Of a stretch of DNA of 64,000 bases, positions 16,480 to 44,755 are shown piece after piece. Position 1 is the first letter of the stretch; every line of letters begins with the position of its first letter. The DNA comes from Chitinibacter tainanensis DSM 15459 (lineage in GTDB: Bacteria; Pseudomonadota; Gammaproteobacteria; Burkholderiales; Chitinibacteraceae): contig NZ_AUCN01000018.1 of assembly GCF_000429785.1 (NCBI RefSeq), positions 186,001 through 250,000 on the forward strand. The letters are read 5' to 3'. Under the pieces are notes generated by a model, which was not told the origin of the DNA, made no database searches, and saw only the letters and a program-made list of their open reading frames with translations. Both the position numbers and the translations under genes were made by a program.

Positions 16480-16495
16480 AGCAAACTGCGCGCCA
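16480..16495 (-). promoter_or_regulatory. Sigma-54 (-24/-12) promoter of the dioxygenase pair
   Basis: TGGCGCG-CAGT-TTGCT on the minus strand fits the known consensus TGGCACG-N4-TTGCW, with GG and GC ten bases apart. It is 52 bp before the ATG at 16428. A palindromic activator-type site lies 62 bp further upstream. Confidence 0.85.
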
Positions 16496-16557
16496 ATATT
16501 TCCACCAGAAATATCAATGGATTTATTAGAACAAATAAAGCTTTAGCGCCGCCACCC

Positions 16558-16573
16558 TGTTGCTTTCCCAACA
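16558..16573. promoter_or_regulatory. Putative SfnR-type upstream activating site 1
   Basis: TGTTGCTTTCCCAACA, of the form TGYTG-N6-CARCA. An overlapping 9-bp inverted repeat (CCCTGTTGC at 16555-16563, GCAACAGGG at 16579-16587) adds a third half-site. It lies upstream of the sigma-54 promoter at 16480-16495. The link to SfnR is inference. Confidence 0.6.
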
Positions 16574-16604
16574 GTCACGCAACAGGGTGTGGTAATTGCA
16601 GGCA

Positions 16605-20330: not shown

Positions 20331-21305
20331 TTAGAATGGACGACTACCCGCCAGGCTGACCCGCTTTAATACGCGGCGCTCAGTTTCGGGAAACGCCGTC
20401 CGCGAGTGCAATGTCGCCTGGTTATCCCAGTACACGATGTCACCCAAAGCCCAGCGATGCTCATAGCGGTATTTATCTTGCTGAATATGGGCCCGTAAAC
20501 GCGCAATCAGCGCCTCAGCTTCAGCCTGATCGATGCCAAGAATTTCTGACTCGGTATGGGTCGACAAAAACAGTACTTTCTTGCCACTGTCGGGATGAGT
20601 GCGCACCAGCGGATGCGGGAAACCTGGGCCAAGGATTGGCCGGGCTGGGCTGCGATATTTCGGATATTCCGCCTCAAGCCCTTCCGCTTTACGCTGGGCA
20701 TTAAGCACATGGCGCAAGAATGGGTTGTAGGTAATGTGCTGCAAGCCTTCCAACTGAGCTTTGGTGGCTTCGTCCAGATCCAGATAGGCTTGATGAATGT
20801 TGTACCACGAGGTATCACCCCCGACTGATGACAGCTCAACGGCATACAGCAATGAACCTGCCGATGGGATCGGGGTCCATTGATGATCGGCATGCGGAGT
20901 TAACTCGCCATTACCGGTATAACCGCCATCGACATTCGCCACGCGTACTACATCCGGCGCTTTACCCGCGGTATTGGAGGCCAATACGGGCACATCTTCT
21001 GGGGGCACAAAGACAGAGCCAAAATACGTGGCAAAGCGCAGCAAGGCCGAATCATCAAGCTCTTGGCGCTTAAAGATCAGAATAAAGTGCTCATGCAGCG
21101 CCTTTTTCAAGCGCAAGATAGTGCTTGGATGTTGCGGCTGGTTGGCATCGATCCCCGTCACCGTTGCGCCCAAGGCGCCGTCAACCGGCGTAATTACGAT
21201 ATCGGCCGGGTTTTGCCATTGCACGGTCGCGGTAACCGGCCCCTGTGGCAGTAGCGCACGAGAAACATCATTGGTCAGGTTTTTTACATCAGCCAGATTG
21301 GTCAT
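20331..21305 (-). CDS. TauD/TfdA-family 2-oxoglutarate dioxygenase (paralog 3)
   Basis: A 324-aa dioxygenase. Iron ligands lie in TPHADHQWTP (HxD) and NQATLHSRTAF; the Arg region is ERRVLKRVSLAG. It is clearly a different subgroup from the two paralogs near 15 kb, with a longer central loop. The ATG at 21305 is preceded by AAGGAG. A consensus sigma-54 promoter (21341-21356) starts 36 bp upstream. It heads a minus-strand unit with OsmC and the LLM monooxygenase, divergent from the porin operon. Confidence 0.85.
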   Translation of the reverse strand: MTNLADVKNLTNDVSRALLPQGPVTATVQWQNPADIVITPVDGALGATVTGIDANQPQHPSTILRLKKALHEHFILIFKRQELDDSALLRFATYFGSVFVPPEDVPVLASNTAGKAPDVVRVANVDGGYTGNGELTPHADHQWTPIPSAGSLLYAVELSSVGGDTSWYNIHQAYLDLDEATKAQLEGLQHITYNPFLRHVLNAQRKAEGLEAEYPKYRSPARPILGPGFPHPLVRTHPDSGKKVLFLSTHTESEILGIDQAEAEALIARLRAHIQQDKYRYEHRWALGDIVYWDNQATLHSRTAFPETERRVLKRVSLAGSRPF

Positions 21306-21340
21306 ACGAAATTCTCCTTGGTGAGTGACTAGTCGCATTC

Positions 21341-21356
21341 AGCAGAATCCATGCCA
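21341..21356 (-). promoter_or_regulatory. Sigma-54 promoter of dioxygenase 3 / OsmC / LLM unit
   Basis: TGGCATG-GATT-CTGCT on the minus strand; GG and GC are ten bases apart. One mismatch to TTGCW. Predicted leader of about 25 nt before the ATG at 21305. Confidence 0.8.
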
Positions 21357-21507
21357 GAGTGCTCAAGCCTGTTATTCCAGAGGTTTTCGTTGTTATTCAC
21401 CGCGTAACTGCTGTGTTTTGCGCTGCGCTACGCAGCAAACTGCTGCGATATCACCACCCACCCAAAACCGGCACCAACCCGCCTTATTTCATCCCATCTG
21501 ACCGCAC

Positions 21508-21523
21508 TGTTGATTTTTCAACA
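21508..21523. promoter_or_regulatory. Putative SfnR-type upstream activating site 2
   Basis: TGTTGATTTTTCAACA, a perfect palindrome around four T, extended by C and G to an 18-bp repeat. It is 72 bp upstream of the plus-strand sigma-54 promoter and about 150 bp upstream of the minus-strand one. Confidence 0.65.
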
Positions 21524-21595
21524 GATTGCTGACAGCGCGCAGCGGCCGCTGTTGCGTTCTGTTCAGTTATAACTGTTTTTTCTATAAAAACACGT

Positions 21596-21611
21596 TGGCA
21601 CACCTTTTGCT
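21596..21611 (+). promoter_or_regulatory. Sigma-54 promoter of the porin/ABC/arylsulfatase operon
   Basis: TGGCACA-CCTT-TTGCT: a near-perfect -24/-12 element, 86 bp before the porin ATG. No other strong promoter is seen before the nine co-directional genes to 31053. Confidence 0.88.
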
Positions 21612-23123: not shown

Positions 23124-24194
23124 ATGAAAAATAAAATTTTTGCACTAAGCACCCTGACCCTCGCCCTGATCGCAGCCAGCCCGGCTTGGGCTGACCCAGC
23201 CAAAGTCATCCGTATTGGGGTGGCCACCGTCGGCACTGGTGGCAAACCGGTCTTTGGTGGCTCTTCCGCAGCCACGGCCGCGACACGCGGCCTGATTGAA
23301 GAAGAATTCAAAAAAGACGGCATCAAGGTGGAATGGAATTACTTCAAAGGCGCCGGCCCAGCAGTAAATGAAGCACTGGCCAACAAGCTGCTGGATTTTG
23401 CGTGGCAAGGTGACTTACCCGCGATTGTGGCCAAAGCCAGTGGCTTGAAAACCAAAATCTTGCTCGCGAACGGCACGCTGGGCACCACCTATCTCGCGGT
23501 CCCCGCAGATTCACCAGCGAAAAAGCTGGAAGACCTGAAAGGCAAAAAAGTAGCCCTCTTTAAAGGCACCAATGGCCAGCTAGTAGTAAATAAGGTGCTC
23601 GATCAATACGGCCTAACCGAAAAAGACTTCAAGCTGATCAATATGGATACGGCGACGACCGATGCCGCCATCGCGACAAAAGACGTCGATGGTGCATGGT
23701 ATGGCTCGAACATTTTCCAGCTCGTTGATCGCGGCGTAGCACGCATCATTTGGTCTAATAAAGAAGGCCCAATTTCTCTAACCCGCCAAACGCATTTCTT
23801 GGTGACCGAAGACTTTGAAAAGGCCAATCCGGAAATCACCCAGCGGGTAGTGAATGTGCTGGTCCGCACGGCCGCGGATATTTCCAAACCGGAAAATGCA
23901 GACAAAGTGCTGCAAGAATGGGCGAAATCAGGCACGCCATATTCATCTTGGAAAAAAGACTACAACGGCGGTGCTGACCTCAAACGTCGCTCTAGCCCGC
24001 TGCTGGATGAGTTTTTCTACAACCACTACAGAGATGCCGTACAGGCCTCATTGAAATTCAAGCTGATTCGCAAGGATTTCGACGTCAATCAGTGGTTTGA
24101 GCCCAAATACCTGAATCAGGCCCTGAAAGAGCAAAAACTGGAGAACTTCTGGACTGCTTACGACGCCAAGGGCAACCCCAAAGGCGGTAAGTAA
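23124..24194 (+). CDS. Periplasmic binding protein for sulfate esters/sulfonates (AtsR/SsuA-like)
   Basis: A 356-aa binding protein of the SsuA/TauA/NrtT family with a signal peptide ending in PAWA. Family stretches are EEFKKDGIKVEWNYFKGAGP, NEALANKLLDFAWQGDLPA and LKGKKVALFKGTNGQL. It would deliver the organosulfur ligand to the permease pair encoded downstream. Gene order with permease, ATPase and arylsulfatase resembles the ats genes of Pseudomonas (atsR-atsB-atsC with atsA). A paralog is at 43670. The stop overlaps the next start by one base (TAATG). Confidence 0.85.
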   Translation: MKNKIFALSTLTLALIAASPAWADPAKVIRIGVATVGTGGKPVFGGSSAATAATRGLIEEEFKKDGIKVEWNYFKGAGPAVNEALANKLLDFAWQGDLPAIVAKASGLKTKILLANGTLGTTYLAVPADSPAKKLEDLKGKKVALFKGTNGQLVVNKVLDQYGLTEKDFKLINMDTATTDAAIATKDVDGAWYGSNIFQLVDRGVARIIWSNKEGPISLTRQTHFLVTEDFEKANPEITQRVVNVLVRTAADISKPENADKVLQEWAKSGTPYSSWKKDYNGGADLKRRSSPLLDEFFYNHYRDAVQASLKFKLIRKDFDVNQWFEPKYLNQALKEQKLENFWTAYDAKGNPKGGK

Positions 24195-25441
24195 TGACAG
24201 CTGGCACCGAGCAGACCGCCGCGGTGCCAGCGGTTTCGGCCCGCTGGTTTCTGCTGAATTTCGTGGCGCTGTCTTTACTGGCTGGGGTCGGGGTGGGGAT
24301 TGCCAAGGTGAGCACTGCGCTCTATGCCTTGCATCTGCACGCCAGCAATGCCGAGATCGGCCTGATCAGCGCGGCGCAGATGGTGGGCATGCTGTTTATG
24401 AGTATCCCGGTCGGTTTGCTGCTGGATCAGGTGGGTGCCATGAAGATGTATTTCAGCGGCACCTTGATTGCGGCCCTGCTGTATTGCCTGACGCCCAGTA
24501 TTGGCGAAGCGTGGTTTTTGCTGCTGTGCACGGCGCTGGTGAGCTTTTGCATGCCCTGCCGTTTTATTGCCCTGAATGCCGTGTTTATGCAGCAACTGAA
24601 TCAGGTCGGTGAAACCAAAGCCGGCTGGTTTCGTGGCTGCCACATGATCGGCATGTTTTTACTGGGGCCCGCTATTGCCACCGCCTTGATTGCTGCTTTG
24701 CCCTTTGGCTGGGTGTATCAGCTGATTGGCATCAGCTTTGTCCTCACTTTGCTGATCGCGCCACGGGTGCTGCGTATTTATCAACCCAAAGCCGTCAGCC
24801 ACCCAGGTGGTGCCATCTGGCCAAGGGTGCGCAGCCAATTTGGCCTGCTGCGCCGGCATCGCGCCTTGCAGCAATGTGGCGCGATTGAGGTGTTGGTGAA
24901 CAGCAGCATGATGTTTTACACCGCCTTCATCGTCGCGATTGCGGTCCGTGATTTTGGCCTATCGGCCAGTGCCGCCGCCAGCCTGATCACCAGTCAGGGC
25001 TTGAGTTTTATCTTGGCGCTGATGCTGCTGGGTGGCGTAGCGCAAAAGCTGGGACGGCGGGCCGTGTATCGGCTGGGCTTTACCGGCGGCGCGCTGAGTT
25101 TATGTCTGCTGGGCCTCGCCCCCTGGGGCGCTGCGCTGTGGGTGGGCGGCTTGCTGCTTGGGCTGGCTCTGGGCTGGTTGCAGGCAGCGAATATGACCCG
25201 GGTAGCCCAGCTGGGTGAGGATCTGGGGCAAGGCCAGGTGGCCGGATTAATGGCCCTGATCGGCCCATTGGGTGGTTTTAGCGGCACGGTGATTGGCGGG
25301 CTATTTGGCCAGCTGATTCATCTGCAATGGTTGTTTTTGTTTTTTGCCGGCTGTTTTGTGCTGGCGGCGGGGTTTAGTTTGCGCCCTGCAGCCAGCACAG
25401 AGACGGAGCACGAACTTAATTATCAAGGAGTATCGCAATGA
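24194..25441 (+). CDS. MFS transporter inside the organosulfur ABC operon
   Basis: A 415-aa major-facilitator protein with about twelve helices. The motif-A-like loop PVGLLLDQVGAMKMYF follows helix 2. It starts within the stop of the binding-protein gene and its own stop overlaps the permease start (ATGA), so it is fully embedded in the operon. MFS genes between a binding protein and its permease are unusual; it might export a desulfurated product or import a second substrate. The direction and substrate cannot be told. Confidence 0.78.
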   Translation: MTAGTEQTAAVPAVSARWFLLNFVALSLLAGVGVGIAKVSTALYALHLHASNAEIGLISAAQMVGMLFMSIPVGLLLDQVGAMKMYFSGTLIAALLYCLTPSIGEAWFLLLCTALVSFCMPCRFIALNAVFMQQLNQVGETKAGWFRGCHMIGMFLLGPAIATALIAALPFGWVYQLIGISFVLTLLIAPRVLRIYQPKAVSHPGGAIWPRVRSQFGLLRRHRALQQCGAIEVLVNSSMMFYTAFIVAIAVRDFGLSASAAASLITSQGLSFILALMLLGGVAQKLGRRAVYRLGFTGGALSLCLLGLAPWGAALWVGGLLLGLALGWLQAANMTRVAQLGEDLGQGQVAGLMALIGPLGGFSGTVIGGLFGQLIHLQWLFLFFAGCFVLAAGFSLRPAASTETEHELNYQGVSQ

Positions 25442-26283
25442 GCACAGCGATTACATTAAATCAGAGCGATATACCCGCCGAGGTATCCGCCAAACGCCCG
25501 AGCCAGTGGCGACAAAAAACGGGGCAAAAACTGCAGCAAATTTTGTGGGCATTGGTCTTGCCGCTGCTCGTTCTGGGCTTATGGCAAATCACCAGCGCTC
25601 ACGAATGGGTCTCCCCGCAAATCCTGCCACCGCCCTCTTTGGTGTGGCAAACCCTGACCGAGCTGTGGCAAAGCGGCGATCTGACCAGCAATTTGCAAAT
25701 CAGTGTCGAGCGCGTGGCCTATGGCTTTGGGGTGGGTACAGTGGTGGGCTTGCTGCTAGGCGCCTTGATGGGGCTATCGAAAACGGTGGAAGCGTATTTA
25801 TTTCCCACCTTTAAAGCCCTGAGCCAGATTCCGGCGCTGGGCTGGATTCCGCTACTGATTATGGTGGTGGGCATTGGTGAATCGATGAAGATTTTGGTGA
25901 TTGCCAAAGCGGCCTTGGTGCCGGTCACGGTCAATACCTTGCAAGGTATCCGCAATATCCCGCCCCAATTTGCCGAGGTGGCCAAGGTCTATCGCTTTAA
26001 CACCCGCCAATTACTGGCCAAGGTGGTAATCCCGGCTGCCTTGCCCTCGCTGTTTACCGGTATTCGCTATGGCCTCACCCATGCCTGGCTGGCCCTGGTG
26101 ACTGTTGAGCTCCTGGCCTCAAGTGAAGGCATTGGCTTTTTGATGGTCTGGGGCCGGCAGTTGTTCCAGCTGGATCTGGTGCTGGCCACGGTGGTGATCA
26201 TTGGCGCAGTGGGTTTGTTAATCGACCAGTCGCTGCAATGGCTGGAAACCCATTTCCTGAAATGGCGTCGCGTTGCGTTTTAA
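25438..26283 (+). CDS. ABC permease, SsuC/TauC type (first of two)
   Basis: A 281-aa inner-membrane permease of the binding-protein-dependent family, with about six helices. The ATPase-contact EAA loop is FAEVAKVYRFNTRQLLAKVVIPAALPSLFTG, with the conserved Gly and Ile-Pro positions. It probably pairs with the second permease to form a heterodimer, driven by the ATPase at 27160. In Pseudomonas the equivalent AtsB is a single large protein with two permease halves; here the halves are separate genes. Confidence 0.85.
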   Translation: MSTAITLNQSDIPAEVSAKRPSQWRQKTGQKLQQILWALVLPLLVLGLWQITSAHEWVSPQILPPPSLVWQTLTELWQSGDLTSNLQISVERVAYGFGVGTVVGLLLGALMGLSKTVEAYLFPTFKALSQIPALGWIPLLIMVVGIGESMKILVIAKAALVPVTVNTLQGIRNIPPQFAEVAKVYRFNTRQLLAKVVIPAALPSLFTGIRYGLTHAWLALVTVELLASSEGIGFLMVWGRQLFQLDLVLATVVIIGAVGLLIDQSLQWLETHFLKWRRVAF

Positions 26284-26301
26284 GTTTGAGTGAGGTGTGT
26301 G

Positions 26302-27090
26302 ATGTCTGCATTTAAAACCCGTTTACAGGCGCTGGGCCAGCGTGATTTTCGCGGGCTCGTCCTGCCGTTGGGGCTGATCCTGGCTTGGTATTTGATCAGT
26401 AAATTTAACTTGGCCAACAGCGCGATTCTGGCTTCACCGTATGAAGTCTGGAAAGAAGGCTATGGCCAGATCAGCAGCGGGGCATTTGCCCTTGATCTGG
26501 TCCATAGCGTATCCCGCAATCTGGGTGGCTTTGTGGTGGGGGGCACTGCCGGGCTGATTTTGGGTAGTTTGCTGGGTGTATCTCGCTGGGCCGATCGCCT
26601 GATCAGCCCGAGCTTTAACACCATCAAGTCGATTGCCATTTTTGCCTGGATTCCCCTGATTTCGGTGTGGTTTGGCATGGGCGAGCCGGCCAAGATCATT
26701 TTCATCGCGATTGCGGCCTTTTACCCCACCACGATCAATACCTACGAAGGTATCCGCAGCGTGCATCGCGATCATGTTGAGGTGGCGCGGGTGTTTGAAT
26801 TCAGCCGCTGGCAGCTGTTTCGCAAAGTGATTTTGCCGTCAGCTTCGCCGCAGATCATTACCGGCATCCAACTGGCGCTGATTTATAGCTGGCTGGCCAC
26901 GATTGGCGCCGAGTATTTCCTCAAATCCGGCCACGGCATTGCCAACTCGATGATTGATGGTCGCGAGCATTTCAATATGGGCTCGGTGCTGTTTGGTGTG
27001 GTGGTGGTCGGCGTAGTGGGCGCCATCGTCAATCAACTGGCCTTCAAATTAGAAAAACACCTGCTGGGCTGGCGTAACCGTACCGCCTGA
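26302..27090 (+). CDS. ABC permease, SsuC/TauC type (second of two)
   Basis: A 262-aa permease with the EAA loop HVEVARVFEFSRWQLFRKVILPSASPQIITG and about six helices. It is related to but clearly distinct from its neighbour, which supports a heterodimeric channel. The ATG at 26302 follows a GAGGTG site; an in-frame GTG at 26290 is the alternative. Eighteen bases separate it from the first permease. Confidence 0.85.
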   Translation: MSAFKTRLQALGQRDFRGLVLPLGLILAWYLISKFNLANSAILASPYEVWKEGYGQISSGAFALDLVHSVSRNLGGFVVGGTAGLILGSLLGVSRWADRLISPSFNTIKSIAIFAWIPLISVWFGMGEPAKIIFIAIAAFYPTTINTYEGIRSVHRDHVEVARVFEFSRWQLFRKVILPSASPQIITGIQLALIYSWLATIGAEYFLKSGHGIANSMIDGREHFNMGSVLFGVVVVGVVGAIVNQLAFKLEKHLLGWRNRTA

Positions 27091-27159
27091 TTGGCGCCGT
27101 ACGCCCCTTGCTGAATCCGCATTGGCTTTGAAACTTTGCATTGAATAAGGAATAACCTC

Positions 27160-27978
27160 ATGAGCGCCTTGGGCACCCTCGATTTTAAAAACGTCAAAAA
27201 ACAATATCACGTGAAAGGCGAAACGCTGGACGTGCTGGATGGTATTAATCTGCACATCAAACCCGGTGAATTTGTCAGCATTGTGGGTAGCTCCGGTTGC
27301 GGCAAATCGACCCTGCTGCGTCTGGCGATCGGTCTAGATGATGATTATCAGGGCGATATTTTGCTCGATGGCGCCCGCATCAAGGGCACCAGCCTCAAGC
27401 GCGGAATTGTATTTCAAGAGCACCGGCTCTTTCCTTGGCTCACGGTCGAGCAAAACGTCGGCCTGGCTTTGGAAAACTCAACGCTCAGCAGCAATGAACG
27501 GGCGAAAACCATTGCCGAACATCTGGAATTGGTGGGCCTGAAAGGCTTTGAGAAAGCCTACCCGTATCAACTTTCGGGCGGAATGAGCCAACGGGTGGCC
27601 ATCGCCCGCGGGCTGGTGAATCGCCCGGAAATCCTGCTCTTGGATGAGCCATTTGGCGCGCTGGATGCCTTGACCCGCGCCAATCTGCAAAACGAATTGC
27701 AACGCATTTGGCAAACCGAAGGCATCACCATGATTTTGGTGACGCATGACGTCGAAGAAGCAGTCCTGCTCGGCGATCGGGTGGTGATCATGGAGCCGCG
27801 TCCGGGCCGGATTAAACGCACGGTCGAGGTGGATGTCCCGCATCCGCGCCAGCGCGCCGATTTGCGGCTGGCCGCCATTAAAGACGATGTACTCAGCGAA
27901 TTTGGCCATGAGCATGACACCGCCCTGCAGCCCGCAGCGGAAGGCTTCGGCTTTAAAGACTATCTGTTTGCGTGGTGA
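27160..27978 (+). CDS. ABC ATPase, SsuB/AtsC type
   Basis: A 272-aa cytoplasmic nucleotide-binding protein: Walker A GSSGCGKST, Q-loop IVFQEHRLFPWLT, signature LSGGMSQRVAIARGL, Walker B LLLDEPFGALDALTR and H-loop VTHDVEEAVLLGDR. It is of the nitrate/sulfonate/taurine ATPase group and would power the two permeases just upstream. AAGGAATAA precedes the ATG. The arylsulfatase gene begins six bases after its stop. Confidence 0.9.
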   Translation: MSALGTLDFKNVKKQYHVKGETLDVLDGINLHIKPGEFVSIVGSSGCGKSTLLRLAIGLDDDYQGDILLDGARIKGTSLKRGIVFQEHRLFPWLTVEQNVGLALENSTLSSNERAKTIAEHLELVGLKGFEKAYPYQLSGGMSQRVAIARGLVNRPEILLLDEPFGALDALTRANLQNELQRIWQTEGITMILVTHDVEEAVLLGDRVVIMEPRPGRIKRTVEVDVPHPRQRADLRLAAIKDDVLSEFGHEHDTALQPAAEGFGFKDYLFAW

Positions 27979-36096: not shown

Positions 36097-36291
36097 CGTA
36101 GGGTCTCTCCCGAAGGTGTTCAGTCACGGCCTGAGATGTTTGCCCACTGCCGCGGCAGACGTGAATCGCTGCTGACTGCATCTTCCCCTAGTTTTGATAT
36201 TCCAATAAATAATATTTTGTGATTTTTATATAACCAAAGACAAATATCCAATGCTCACGATGCTGCGAAGCACGCAGACTCTGGTGCAATC

Positions 36292-36307
36292 TGCTGCGCA
36301 GGCAACA
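36292..36307. promoter_or_regulatory. Putative SfnR-type upstream activating site 3
   Basis: TGCTGCGCAGGCAACA, of the form TGYTG-N6-CARCA, 65 bp upstream of the sigma-54-like element of ssuE. If SfnR binds it, the regulator would control its own operon. Confidence 0.5.
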
Positions 36308-36372
36308 GCGCGCATGCATATTCCAATTTGATCTATGAGAATATTTATTAATTATTTTTAGAAATATACAGC

Positions 36373-36424: not shown

Positions 36425-37021
36425 ATGTCCACTGTAGTCTTGCTGGCAGGCAGCCCGAGCCAGCCCTCGAAATCCACCGCCTTATTGCAGCGCGCCGCCA
36501 AACTGCTGCGCAGTCAAGGGGTAAAGGTTATTCAGTACGGCGTGCATGACTTTCCAGCCGAAGATCTGATTAACGCCCGCTGGAATAGTCCGGCCATTAG
36601 CGAATTTAAAGCCGTCATTGCCGACAGCGATGGCTTGATTATCAGCACGCCCGTGTACAAAGCGGCGTACAGCGGCGTGATCAAAGCCATTCTTGATCTG
36701 CTGCCTGAGCGGGCACTCGAAGGCAAAGCGGCGCTGGCTTTGGCCACCGGGGGCAGCCCCGGGCATCTGTTGGCGGTGGAATACGCCTTGCAGCCGGTGC
36801 TATCGGCACTGAAAGCCCGCCATATTGTCGGCGGGGTTTACGCCACCGACAAGGATTTTACGAGCCAAGAGCCGACTGGCTACCAAATCGCCCCAGAAAT
36901 CGACGAGCGCCTCGCCTTGGCTATCGGCCATTTCCTGGCGCACTTGAGTAATCCTGGTCGGGTCCAGCTCGACCCGGCCCAGCTGGCCGCTCGCATCCAG
37001 CAGGCCAGCATCAGTATCTGA
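36425..37021 (+). CDS. ssuE: SsuE, NAD(P)H-dependent FMN reductase
   Basis: A 198-aa flavodoxin-like reductase. The phosphate-binding loop is LLAGSPSQPSKSTALL and the substrate loop IISTPVYKAAYSGVIKAILDLLP. SsuE supplies reduced FMN to two-component flavin monooxygenases; here the LLM enzymes at 18482 and 41839 are the likely clients. No canonical SsuD gene was recognised in the window. CTTGGAG precedes the ATG. It is followed 51 bp later by the molybdopterin-binding-like SsuF gene, as in Pseudomonas putida where both are needed for sulfonate use. Confidence 0.9.
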   Translation: MSTVVLLAGSPSQPSKSTALLQRAAKLLRSQGVKVIQYGVHDFPAEDLINARWNSPAISEFKAVIADSDGLIISTPVYKAAYSGVIKAILDLLPERALEGKAALALATGGSPGHLLAVEYALQPVLSALKARHIVGGVYATDKDFTSQEPTGYQIAPEIDERLALAIGHFLAHLSNPGRVQLDPAQLAARIQQASISI

Positions 37022-37317: not shown

Positions 37318-37360
37318 TATATTCATCAAGCCATTATTCTGCAGTGTCTTGATGAATATA
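37318..37360. repeat. 13-bp perfect inverted repeat upstream of sfnR
   Basis: TATATTCATCAAG and CTTGATGAATATA flank a 17-nt spacer, 28 bp before the sfnR start. The outer bases continue as ATACCC on the right, linking it to the GGTAT/ATACC family. It could be an operator for sfnR or an mRNA hairpin. Confidence 0.65.
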
Positions 37361-37387
37361 CCCATAAGCCACCACCAGGAGAACGCC

Positions 37388-38497
37388 ATGCCCGATAACT
37401 CGACGACCGTGCTGACCTTTCCCGATCAGGAACAAAGTCCGCTCAGCATTCGGGCCAAAGCCTTGGTATTTGCCGACCCGGAATCCCAGCAATTACTGCA
37501 TGAAGTAGAGCGGGTTGCGCCATCTGAAGCGCCGATTCTCATCCACGGTGAAACCGGTACGGGTAAAGAACTGGTCGCCCGCCATGTGCACCGGATCAGT
37601 GGCAGGAGAGGCCCATTTGTCGCGGTGAATTGCGGCGCAATTAGCGAAACCTTGGCCGAAGCCGAGCTATTCGGGCATGAAGCGGGTGCCTATACCGGCG
37701 CGGTAGGCAGCAAAACCGGCTGGTTCGAGGCGGCCAATGGGGGCACCCTGTTTCTGGATGAAATTGGCGATTTGCCGCTGGCTTTGCAGGTGAAGCTATT
37801 GCGCGTGATTCAGGAGCGCGAGGTGGTACGGGTTGGCGCCCGCAAGCCCACCCCCATTAATGTACGACTGGTTGCGGCCACCAATGTGGACTTGGCGCAG
37901 GCAGTGAATGCCGGGCATTTCCGCCAGGATTTACTCTATCGGCTTAATGTGGTGAGTATCAATATTCCAGCCTTGCGCCAGCGCCGGGCCGATATTCAGC
38001 CGCTGGCCGAGCACTTTTTGGGCATTTATGCCCACAAGCTGGGTTATGGCGCACCCGCCCTCACCCCCGGCAGCGTGCAGGCGTTACAAAGCTACAGCTG
38101 GCCAGGCAATATTCGCGAGCTGGAAAATGTGATGCATTACGCGCTGCTGGTCTCCAGCGGCCGTGAAATCCGCCCCGAACACCTCAAGCTCAACGCCATC
38201 ACCAGCCATGGGCAGGAAACCGCAGGCAGTGGCGACCCGCTGCAAATTATTCGCCAGCAACTGCATAAATTATTTCAGGCTGAGCAGCCTGAGCTCTTTG
38301 AGCAAGTCGAAGATCTACTGGTTCGTTCTGCGTACGAATACACCCGCTACAACCAGGTGCGTACCGCCGAACTTCTAGGGCTCACCCGTAATGTGTTGCG
38401 CACCTTGCTCAAAAGGCATGGTTTGCTGAACGACCCGCACCATCCCACCACCACCACGACGACTGGACGAGAAATAGCATGGAATATCGTAAATTAG
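37388..38497 (+). CDS. sfnR: SfnR-like sigma-54-dependent transcriptional activator
   Basis: A 369-aa bacterial enhancer-binding protein without receiver or GAF sensor domain. The AAA+ core has Walker A GETGTGKE, the sigma-54 contact loop as GAYTGA (usual form GAFTGA), Walker [13 protein letters not shown], the sensor I region LVAATN and the Arg-finger region [13 protein letters not shown]-terminal FIS-type helix-turn-helix ends the protein ([21 protein letters not shown]). This layout and size match SfnR, which controls dimethylsulfone and related sulfur use in Pseudomonas. AGGAGAA precedes the ATG at 37388. It is the only such activator in the window. Confidence 0.88.
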
Positions 38498-41838: not shown

Positions 41839-43203
41839 TTAAGCCGCCTGCTCACCCTCGTCCGCTTGGTATCGGCTGCTAGGGATCGGTAGGCCTAGAT
41901 TGCCACGCAGCGTCGATGCTTCATATTCAGTGCGGAACAGGCCACGTTTTTGCAGAATCGGGATCACCAAATCAGCAAAATCGACCAGGCCACCTGGATA
42001 AGTCGGCGCCAACAAGTTGAAACCGTCGGCTGCGCCGCCCACGAACCACTCTTCCAGCTGATCGGCAATACGCTCTGGCGTGCCATGAATCACGCGGTGC
42101 CCACGGGCCCCGGCTACCCATTCATACAAGCCGCGGATGGTGAGATTTTCGCGTGCGGCCAAGTCCAGCAATAGCCGCTGGCGGCTCTTGTTGTTGTTGG
42201 TTTCCGGTAGATCTTGCGGTACGGGCCCATCCAGATCGTAATCGCGCAGCCCCTCCAGGCCGCCTAGGCTCGCCAGCAGACTCAGACCAATCTTAGGATC
42301 AATCAATTCACGCAATTGTTCTTTCTTGGCGAGGGCTTCGGCCTCGGTGCGGCCAATCACGGGGTATACGCCTGGCAAAATCTTGATGTGATCTGGGTTG
42401 CGGCCGTATTTATTGGCTGCGCGAGCTTTCACATCCCGATAGAAAGATTGCGCGTCTTCCAGCGTTTGCCAGGCAGCAAAGATGGCCTCCGCGGTTTGCG
42501 CCGCCAGCTCGCGGCCGGGTTCGGATGCCCCTGCCTGCACCAACACCGGGTGTCCTTGCGGCGAGCGCGGCACATTCAGCGGCCCCTTCACCTTAAAGTA
42601 TTCGCCCTGATGATTCAGTAGATGCAGTTTGCTCGGGTCGTAATATACCCCTGAGGCTTTGTCGTAGAGATGCGAGCCTTCATCCCAGCTATCCCACAGC
42701 CCTTTCACTACATCGACAAACTCAGCGGCGCGGCGATAGCGTTCAGCGTGGTCCGGATGCGCCTCCAGGCCAAAGTTAAATGCCGCTTCGGCATTGCCCG
42801 ACGTCACCACATTCCACGCGGCTCGCCCACCACTAATGAGATCCAAAGACGCGTATTTACGGGCGATATGCCATGGCTCGTTGTAAGTGGTCGAAGCTGT
42901 GGCCACAAAGCCAATATTCTTGGTGACGGCAGCTAGTGCGGAATAGAGGGTGATGGGCTCAAAACCTGTGCTCAGCTCACGACGGCTGCGCAAATCCTGA
43001 TCGCCACCGCCGCCCCAGATGCCATCGCTATCGGCGGTAAAGATGGTATCGAATTTTGCAGCTTCGGCGATCTTGGCTAGTTTTTTGAAGTGTTCAAAAT
43101 CCGTTGAGCCGGCCGGATTGGTATCCGGATGACGCCAGGCCGCCGCATGGTGGCCAGAAGGTGAGAGAAATACGCCCAGTTTCAATTGTCGTTTGTTGCT
43201 CAT
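41839..43203 (-). CDS. LLM-class flavin-dependent monooxygenase, NtaA/DmoA type (paralog 2)
   Basis: A 454-aa luciferase-like monooxygenase, clearly a paralog of the one at 18482. Shared stretches are LGVFLSPSGHHAAAWRHP, STTYNEPWHIARKYASLD, SGGRAAWNVVTS and RGHRVIHGTPERIADQL. It would use FMNH2 from the SsuE-type reductase. A consensus sigma-54 promoter (43259-43274) with a palindromic site 87 bp behind it lies upstream, and it is divergent from a second binding protein gene, whose ligand it may oxidise. Confidence 0.85.
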   Translation of the reverse strand: MSNKRQLKLGVFLSPSGHHAAAWRHPDTNPAGSTDFEHFKKLAKIAEAAKFDTIFTADSDGIWGGGGDQDLRSRRELSTGFEPITLYSALAAVTKNIGFVATASTTYNEPWHIARKYASLDLISGGRAAWNVVTSGNAEAAFNFGLEAHPDHAERYRRAAEFVDVVKGLWDSWDEGSHLYDKASGVYYDPSKLHLLNHQGEYFKVKGPLNVPRSPQGHPVLVQAGASEPGRELAAQTAEAIFAAWQTLEDAQSFYRDVKARAANKYGRNPDHIKILPGVYPVIGRTEAEALAKKEQLRELIDPKIGLSLLASLGGLEGLRDYDLDGPVPQDLPETNNNKSRQRLLLDLAARENLTIRGLYEWVAGARGHRVIHGTPERIADQLEEWFVGGAADGFNLLAPTYPGGLVDFADLVIPILQKRGLFRTEYEASTLRGNLGLPIPSSRYQADEGEQAA

Positions 43204-43258
43204 GCTCTGCTCCCTATGGGTTGGATATGGGCTGCGCAGGCAGCCATAGCCCTACTAG

Positions 43259-43274
43259 AGCAATGGGTATGCCA
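43259..43274 (-). promoter_or_regulatory. Sigma-54 promoter of LLM monooxygenase 2
   Basis: TGGCATA-CCCA-TTGCT on the minus strand, GG and GC ten bases apart, 56 bp before the ATG at 43203. Confidence 0.87.
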
Positions 43275-43360
43275 ACCACAAAACAAAGACACCAAGCAAT
43301 TGATTTATTTGAATATTTAATTCAAATTGTACCCTTCCCTCAGACAAGGGGCGCTTACCG

Positions 43361-43376
43361 TGTTGCGCCATCAACA
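43361..43376. promoter_or_regulatory. Putative SfnR-type upstream activating site 4
   Basis: TGTTGCGCCATCAACA, of the form TGYTG-N6-CARCA, 87 bp upstream of the minus-strand sigma-54 promoter. Confidence 0.62.
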
Positions 43377-43445
43377 GGCAACAGCGCAGCCTGCTGAAAA
43401 GTGCACAGCGCACCCTGAACTCCATTTGCTGACTTTTAAACAATG

Positions 43446-43461
43446 TGCTGATTACTCAGCA
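43446..43461. promoter_or_regulatory. Putative SfnR-type upstream activating site 5
   Basis: TGCTGATTACTCAGCA, extended by TG and CA to a 20-bp palindrome (43444-43463). It is 106 bp upstream of the plus-strand sigma-54 promoter. Confidence 0.65.
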
Positions 43462-43566
43462 CAAAAATCACCACGCATGCCTTAAGCAAGTGACACACCA
43501 GGTGATCACGTCACACTGTCTCAGATAAAACAAAGACTTACTACGCAAGACTTTTCTGCGTCGACT

Positions 43567-43582
43567 TGGCATGCCAATTGCA
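43567..43582 (+). promoter_or_regulatory. Sigma-54 promoter of binding protein 2
   Basis: TGGCATG-CCAA-TTGCA, a full match to TGGCAYG-N4-TTGCW, 88 bp before the ATG at 43670. Confidence 0.9.
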
Positions 43583-43669
43583 TTAAGGGTGATTCAGTCA
43601 GGGATGCGACTGAACTGCAATGCTCACAAGGCGCCGCAGTATTCTCATCAGCATAAGGAACAATTCATA

Positions 43670-44755
43670 ATGACAATTCATCAACCTCAACGAACATGGC
43701 GCACGCTACTTACCACCGCGCTGTTACTGCTCAGTACGGCAGCATTGGCTGATCCCGCCAAAATTATCCGGATTGGCGCCGCTGGAACGGGCACCGGTGG
43801 TCGCCCGGTGCAAGGCGGGGGCTCCATTGGCTCGGTCAATATTCAAGGTCTGCTGGAAGAAGAGTTCAAAAAAGATGGCATTAAAGTTGAATGGAGCTTT
43901 TTCAAAGGTGCAGGCCCAGCCGTCAACGAAGCCTTAGCCAATAAATTAATCGACTTTGCCTGGGTAGGCGATCTGCCTACCCTCATCGGGAAAGCCAGTG
44001 GGCTGAAAACCAAGATTATTCTGGCCAACGGCGTACTGAGCCATACCTATTTGCTAGTGCCGGCTGACTCGACCGCGACCTCGATTGATGACTTGAAAGG
44101 CAAAAAAATCGCCGTCTTCAAAGGCACCAAAATGCAGCTGGCCGCGAACAAAATCCTGGAACAGCGCGGGCTATCCGAACGGGATTTTAAGACCATCAAT
44201 ATGGATGTAGCGACGGCCCAGGCCGCGCTGGCGACCAAAGACATTGATGGCGCCTGGCTGACACAAGGCGGCTTTCAACTGATTGATCGAGGTATCGCCA
44301 AAATCATCTACTCCACCAAAGGCCAGCCATTAAGCCAGACCAGCCAGGCCAATCTGCTGGTGACCGAAGAATTCGAGCGCGATAACCCGCAACTGGTCCA
44401 ACGTTTGGTGAAGGTAGCGGTAAAGTCGGCCCACGAAATCTCATTGGATGCCAATCGAGATAAAACACTGCAAGAATGGTCGAAAGACGGCGTGCCATTC
44501 TCGTCTTGGAAAAAAGAGTATGACGGCACCTCTCTCAAGCAACGCTCAAGCCCATTGCTGGATGAATTTTTTGTCGCGTTTTATAAAGATGCACTGCAAT
44601 CAGCGCAGAAGTACCGAATGATTCGCGGCAATATCAATTTTGATCAATGGATAGAGCCAAAGTACGTGAATCAGGCCGTGAAAGAGCTGAAACTGGAAAA
44701 TTTCTGGGTGGAGCTGGATGCCAAGGGCAACCCGAAGGCAAAACGGGGTGGCTAA
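43670..44755 (+). CDS. Periplasmic sulfonate/sulfate-ester binding protein (SsuA/AtsR-like, paralog 2)
   Basis: A 361-aa paralog of the protein at 23124, with a signal peptide ending in AALA and shared stretches (EEFKKDGIKVEWSFFKGAGP, LKGKKIAVFKGTKMQL). AAGGAAC precedes the ATG at 43670; an open frame further upstream overlaps the promoter and is rejected. It stands alone with its own sigma-54 promoter and no permease, so it probably shares the transporter encoded at 25438-27978 and widens its ligand range. Confidence 0.85.
   Translation: MTIHQPQRTWRTLLTTALLLLSTAALADPAKIIRIGAAGTGTGGRPVQGGGSIGSVNIQGLLEEEFKKDGIKVEWSFFKGAGPAVNEALANKLIDFAWVGDLPTLIGKASGLKTKIILANGVLSHTYLLVPADSTATSIDDLKGKKIAVFKGTKMQLAANKILEQRGLSERDFKTINMDVATAQAALATKDIDGAWLTQGGFQLIDRGIAKIIYSTKGQPLSQTSQANLLVTEEFERDNPQLVQRLVKVAVKSAHEISLDANRDKTLQEWSKDGVPFSSWKKEYDGTSLKQRSSPLLDEFFVAFYKDALQSAQKYRMIRGNINFDQWIEPKYVNQAVKELKLENFWVELDAKGNPKAKRGG

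Follow-up and report, generated by a model that had tools for sequence, protein, structure and literature searches.

How a monooxygenase gene and the gene of a substrate-binding protein, transcribed away from each other, might be controlled from the 466-bp gap between them (43204-43669) is the question raised by this locus, which lies in a 64,000-nucleotide stretch of Chitinibacter tainanensis DSM 15459 DNA (the window). The first-pass annotation had described the gap as a divergent pair of sigma-54 promoters, each with a palindrome of its own on its upstream side, and had proposed the palindrome as the activator site on the strength of this symmetry. It is considered quite probable here that the gap acts in both directions as an enhancer-promoter unit within a sulfur-scavenging regulon driven by an SfnR-like activator; the palindromes are very probably binding sites for such an activator, encoded nearby and switching on both genes.

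Along the gap, the minus promoter is followed by palindrome A, palindrome B, and the plus promoter (Table 1), and the divergent pair with its palindromes was found as described (43259-43274 on the minus strand, 43567-43582 on the plus strand, 43360-43377 and 43445-43462). The layout given for the distances also held, whereas the figures of 87 and 106 bp did not, the clear gaps being 85 and 104 bp, each 2 bp less. Both promoters match TGGCAY-N5-YTGCW exactly, with their GG and GC doublets 10 bp apart. The PWMs for sigma-54 sites and palindromes were trained solely on other genomes, and the top four sigma-54 scores of the window fall at 21341(-), 21596(+), 43259(-), and 43567(+). The genome has one TIGR02395 (rpoN) match, at 440 bits and above the cut-off. 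An IHF-like site lies between A and the minus promoter and another between B and the plus promoter, WATCAANNNNTTR being what we take to be the IHF consensus; 11 matches occur here at two mismatches or fewer, counted without a shuffle control, and weaker matches are frequent.

The monooxygenase belongs to the NtaA/DmoA family; for SfnG it scores 79 bits, below the cut-off of 383. The start of the binding protein was set at 43670, the mechanical open reading frame starting at 43571. The coupling of a monooxygenase with a lone binding protein, as first annotated, is borne out in that transporter genes are not directly adjacent. The binding protein shares 63% identity with a counterpart that adjoins an ABC transporter (locus 23124-27978), and the two therefore probably share that transporter (25438-27978). 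A large organosulfur region at 14568-36096 of the window carries three TauD-like dioxygenases, a second NtaA-type monooxygenase, a sulfatase-like protein, a TauE-type exporter, a cystathionine-lyase-like enzyme, and an amino-acid-type transporter.

Table 1. Genes, sigma-54 sites, palindromes, and IHF-like sites in the window, by position (bp distances are to the promoter or site named).
Feature	Position	Strand	Details
Sigma-54-like site before another TauD-like gene	16480-16495	-	PWM 12.2
Palindrome	16557-16574	.	CTGTTGCTTTCCCAACAG; 61 bp from the 16480 site; PWM 20.8
Sigma-54 promoter, second divergent pair, toward TauD-like dioxygenase	21341-21356	-	PWM 23.2, best in window
Palindrome with one mismatch	21440-21457	.	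83 bp from the 21341 promoter; PWM 13.0
Palindrome	21507-21524	.	CTGTTGATTTTTCAACAG; 71 bp from the 21596 promoter; PWM 20.9
Sigma-54 promoter, second pair, toward 463-aa ORF and transport genes	21596-21611	+	PWM 21.2, second best
Palindrome before SsuE-like reductase	36291-36308	.	CTGCTGCGCAGGCAACAG; PWM 20.4
SsuE-like reductase	36425-37021		
Sigma-54 activator (EBP), SfnR-like, proposed binder of A and B	37349-38497	+	GAYTGA loop
NtaA/DmoA-family FMN-dependent monooxygenase (LLM class)	41839-43203	-	TIGR03860 573 bits (cut-off 279.7); PF00296
Sigma-54 promoter of monooxygenase	43259-43274	-	TGGCATACCCATTGCT; 55 bp 5' of ATG; PWM 17.4, third best in window
IHF-like site between A and minus promoter	43293-43305	-	Exact match to WATCAANNNNTTR
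Palindrome A, predicted activator site	43360-43377	.	GTGTTGCGCCATCAACAG; 85 bp from minus promoter; PWM 14.3
Weak, doubtful palindrome	43391-43408	.	31 bp past A, 116 bp from minus promoter; PWM 7.5
Weaker palindrome adjoining B	43426-43443	.	TTGCTGACTTTTAAACAA; 123 bp from plus promoter; PWM 13.4
Palindrome B, predicted activator site	43445-43462	.	GTGCTGATTACTCAGCAC; 104 bp from plus promoter; PWM 16.8
IHF-like site between B and plus promoter	43528-43540	+	One mismatch
Sigma-54 promoter of binding protein	43567-43582	+	TGGCATGCCAATTGCA; PWM 17.2, fourth best in window
SsuA-like substrate-binding protein	43670-44755	+	TIGR01728 141.5 bits, below cut-off 163.5; PF09084

Whether each promoter owns its palindrome is a narrower matter. 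A near site does stand at each promoter, close to a helical ladder of about 10.5-bp steps (+2.0 and 0.0 bp off), and that part of the original claim survives; private use does not follow, as A and B both lie upstream of both promoters. Two weaker palindromes are also present in the gap, so that "one palindrome each" is a simplification. That each palindrome serves just its nearer promoter is plausible. The leading alternative, to which we would give a little under an even chance, is one shared enhancer, in which the activator, occupying A, B, and the weaker palindromes, would form a single complex driving both promoters. It draws on the weaker palindromes between the promoters and on two sister genomes (loci L095 and L096), where two divergent promoters have a single exact palindrome between them, at distances of 42 and 71 bp, an arrangement that likewise tells against ownership. 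It also draws on the cross distances from each palindrome to the far promoter, which at 170 and 189 bp are just 3.0 and 1.0 bp off the ladder and hence not clearly out of phase; an argument for privacy from these distances was dropped on account of the second. Set against a shared enhancer are the near sites, each close to the ladder at its own promoter, and the sister species G006, in which the monooxygenase promoter has its own single palindrome and no binding-protein relative was found.

The case for the palindrome as a predicted activator site holds up by its recurrence at the sigma-54 promoters of relatives, its helical spacing, its recurrence at msu/sfn loci, and the co-occurrence of the genes with the activator, and this comparative evidence is stronger than the local symmetry first relied upon. 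The core TGYTG-N6-CARCA was found 19 times, exactly, in 18 divergent sigma-54 regions (two in the window, 15 in family genomes, and one on an Erwinia contig, three being hand-added) against 0.06 expected; at least one exact core was present in 13 of the 18 and none in the other five (L084, L091, L099, L100, and L101), and since many of the compared promoters are related, these counts are not independent. Measured from each promoter to its nearest site, the gaps follow the ladder (R 0.77 over 31 promoters, with none of 50,000 random sets as high), the sites lying 40-124 bp from their sigma-54 promoters. Sites outside the training list keep the ladder (mean cosine 0.44, n = 18, p 0.003), also after the removal of near-copies (0.43, n = 16, p 0.007). 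By subset, the window gave p 0.006 (five sites), the msu/sfn plasmid loci gave p 0.055 (three sites), and ten other monooxygenase promoters taken alone were not significant (p 0.17), with gaps of 98, 107, and 119 bp off the ladder. Two exact sites were spaced 31-32 bp apart, or about three turns, at four of the eight promoters with more than one exact site.

A longer-spaced form, TGYTG-N9-CARCA, was matched 25 times with one mismatch against 1.1 expected (three exact), and was set aside as a presumed register effect of the 3-bp repeat within CTGYTG; a dyad spacer of 3 was slightly enriched (5 against 1.2 expected). In whole genomes, with both strands summed and with genome size and composition uncorrected, STGTTG-N6-CARCAS averaged 11.5 copies (range 2-26) in the 20 activator-bearing family genomes and 7.0 (range 3-14) in the 23 without it; the ranges overlap, and the motif is thus informative mainly beside sigma-54 sites.

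The monooxygenase promoter itself can be followed among orthologues. That of G006 (92% identity), whose alignment to the query is confined to the gene (86 bp), carries a sigma-54 site 58 bp ahead of its start, and its palindrome lies at 95 bp rather than 85, about one turn further. A sigma-54-like site is found 55-83 bp before the gene in all seven orthologues (83-92%); palindromes scoring above 12 accompany four of them, at 95, 98, 107, and 119 bp, and in the remaining three the palindrome is weak or absent.

The likely binder of A and B is the SfnR-like activator encoded 4.7 kb from the gap, in the same region as the SsuE-like reductase and the two monooxygenases. It comprises the sigma-54 ATPase core (PF00158) at residues 41-204, a lid, and a Fis-type helix-turn-helix (PF02954) at 318-355 that is a weak match (22.2 bits, cut-off 22), and no N-terminal sensory domain was found by domain search. 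Orthologues (E 1e-110 or better) are present in 20 of 43 family genomes. Eighteen of these have binding-protein relatives (E below 1e-50), against none of the 23 genomes without the activator (Fisher p 3e-10, kinship ignored), and monooxygenase relatives (E 1e-150 or better) are found in 18 of the 43, all 18 of which have the activator. A quick tree of 55 rows places the activator within a clade of 30 (SH-aLRT 99) that also holds both activators of a Pseudomonas aeruginosa msu locus, those adjoining msuE-sfnG in Burkholderia pyrrocinia and B. glumae, and that near SfnG of G178; the clade's five other named rows stood outside the check for sfn genes nearby, and the activator near SfnG of G086 lies outside the clade on a long branch. 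The loop that contacts sigma-54 reads GAYTGA in the window activator and in G006, G007, G012, G013, G015, and G016 (the window and L055-L061), GAYTGS in G019, and GAFTGA in G014 and in the activators of the msu/sfn loci. In genus g11, the activator carries the recognition helix SRHALRTLMKRHG, differing from the usual 13-residue helix, and the promoters of its loci (L098-L101) share a variant dyad, such as CTGTGCGATTTGCCACAG or CTGTTTGATTTGCCACAG, in place of the usual palindrome; this joint change, in four related genomes, suggests that the activator reads the palindrome.

Two other assignments of the palindromes may be weighed at this point. They could bind a LysR-type regulator resembling CysB, with the sigma-54 promoters using other activator sites: T-N11-A, the rule for LysR-type boxes, is present twice in the palindrome core, and sulfur genes are often under LysR-type control. 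This is judged unlikely, as the palindromes keep to a helical ladder 40-124 bp from sigma-54 promoters, exact pairs recur at the three-turn interval at half of the promoters with multiple sites, and helix and dyad differ together in g11. They could also be sites of another of the four clear sigma-54 activators of the genome, three of which would be available besides the SfnR-like one; yet these three are encoded on other contigs, stand outside the SfnR-like clade, and have similar proteins in family genomes without the sulfur genes, which makes this very improbable.

That the elements are chance resemblances, with ordinary promoters elsewhere in the gap, is hardly credible. Loose sigma-54 matches (two mismatches) do stand at background in the window (64 against 63.4 expected from shuffled DNA) and so carry no weight by themselves. 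Exact promoters that have an exact palindrome core 20-135 bp upstream, on the other hand, number three in the window and none in 150 shuffles, a sigma-70-type scan of 43000-43800 returned one site (0.6 expected), located at the start of the binding protein, and the elements are kept in G006, where the upstream DNA fails to align.

Exact TGGCAY-N5-YTGCW promoters alone number five in the window, against a mean of 0.9 and a maximum of 4 in 150 dinucleotide shuffles. Five of the 16 places with STGYTG-N6-CARCAS in the 3.43-Mb genome fall within the 64-kb window (binomial p 8e-6). A sigma-54 site with at most one mismatch stands within 250 bp at four of the 15 readable places, all four in the window; none was found within that distance at the fifth window palindrome (36291), where the best PWM score nearby was 2.1 and no site was recognisable, nor at ten places elsewhere in the genome. 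The second divergent pair, at 21341-21611, is of a kind that recurs in many of the family loci examined, and an NCBIfam search of the 463-aa open reading frame beside its plus promoter gave no match. On its other side, the sigma-54 site almost abuts the mechanical start (21338) of the minus-strand gene at 20331-21338; translation more likely begins at the ATG at 21305, which follows AAGGAG.

A sequence of events may be proposed for the gap. Sigma-54 RNA polymerase would be held closed at both promoters, on the monooxygenase side and on the binding-protein side, while dimers of the activator would bind the TGYTG-N6-CARCA palindromes A and B and then assemble into an ATPase ring. Looping of the DNA, perhaps aided by the intervening IHF-like sites, would bring this ring to the promoters, where its GAYTGA loop would contact sigma-54 and the promoters would open. 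Lacking a sensory domain, the activator is probably controlled through its abundance; the level of SfnR is reportedly governed by CysB under sulfate limitation, and an inducing condition of this kind may be supposed here. The binding protein would then capture an organosulfur compound and probably pass it to the ABC transporter, and the monooxygenase would oxidise or cleave that compound, freeing its sulfur.

Judged by its sequence, the unit belongs to a known SfnR/sigma-54 kind, to which the motif and its spacing are useful additions. The SfnR/sfnFG and SfnR1-SfnR2/msuEDC systems of Pseudomonas likewise combine a sigma-54 activator free of a sensory domain, from the same clade, with genes for an FMN-dependent monooxygenase and an FMN reductase. 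They differ in that the predicted targets here are neither SfnG nor MsuD but a monooxygenase of the NtaA/DmoA type, TauD-like dioxygenases, and SsuA-like binding proteins, that the monooxygenase falls under the SfnG cut-off, and that the activator loop is GAYTGA instead of GAFTGA. Enhancers of the NtrC type, whose paired sites are spaced about three turns, similarly present dyads upstream of -24/-12 promoters with pairs about three turns apart, but the dyad and the activator are different here and the latter has no receiver domain. The grouping of TauD-like dioxygenases, SsuA-like binding proteins, an ABC transporter, and an SsuE reductase in one region recalls ssu and tau operons; in those the regulator is Cbl or another LysR-type protein, whereas here it is predicted to be a sigma-54 activator. 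The general picture of sigma-54 systems is left unchanged by this gap.

Beyond the family, a class-wide search with the binding protein at E 1e-80 yielded the own genome alone among 369, and wider sampling therefore went by the activator and by named loci. A P. aeruginosa plasmid record, with the order activator, hypothetical, msuE, alkanesulfonate monooxygenase, acyl-CoA-dehydrogenase-like, activator, has the same palindrome (CTGTTGCCCGGGCAACAG) 82 bp before the msuE promoter, as read from the locus sequence rather than from published SfnR sites, with a two-mismatch copy at 51 bp; exact cores stand at 169 and 166 bp at msuE-sfnG of B. pyrrocinia and B. glumae, the msuE promoters of all three carrying one mismatch each. 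Exact cores were also found on three of six named contigs with close activators, in Pseudomonas (L104, 83 bp), Rhodocyclaceae (L105, 96 bp), and Erwinia (L108, 94 bp), and the other three (L103, L106, and L107) had no exact core, just cores with a mismatch. No promoter-palindrome pair was found in the 20 kb examined in G178, G086, and G227, three class genomes with true SfnG (genes over the SfnG cut-off), and these three genomes count against a universal motif. No SfnR binding motif was identified in the literature searched, which did not extend to the original SfnR papers, so that the motif may already be published; a word search of PMC8041468, PMC7532196, and PMC13086498 (main text) gave no mention of SfnR.

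A broader reading, that TGYTG-N6-CARCA is a general SfnR-type enhancer across Pseudomonadota, shifting mostly by whole helical turns from the -24 element (about 41, 51, 62, 72, 84, 95, and 104 bp) and often in three-turn pairs, is offered tentatively, and we lean slightly against it, given the absence of an exact core from L106 and the mixed outcome of the wider tests. Were it true, SfnR-type regulons could be read from sequence alone, and the monooxygenase with its lone binding protein would be an add-on substrate module that shares a transporter and an activator. The symmetry first noticed in the gap leads in any case to a testable predicted binding motif for a family of sulfur-scavenging activators. 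The spacing, moreover, provides evidence from many natural promoters for the face-of-the-helix rule in sigma-54 activation, for which the usual support is a handful of engineered promoters.

On a plasmid of Burkholderia stagnalis, an SfnR-like activator (8938-10026 of L233) that branches inside the clade of the window's family adjoins an integrase gene, none of the 11 features shown there being a sulfur gene; it has possibly moved between lineages.
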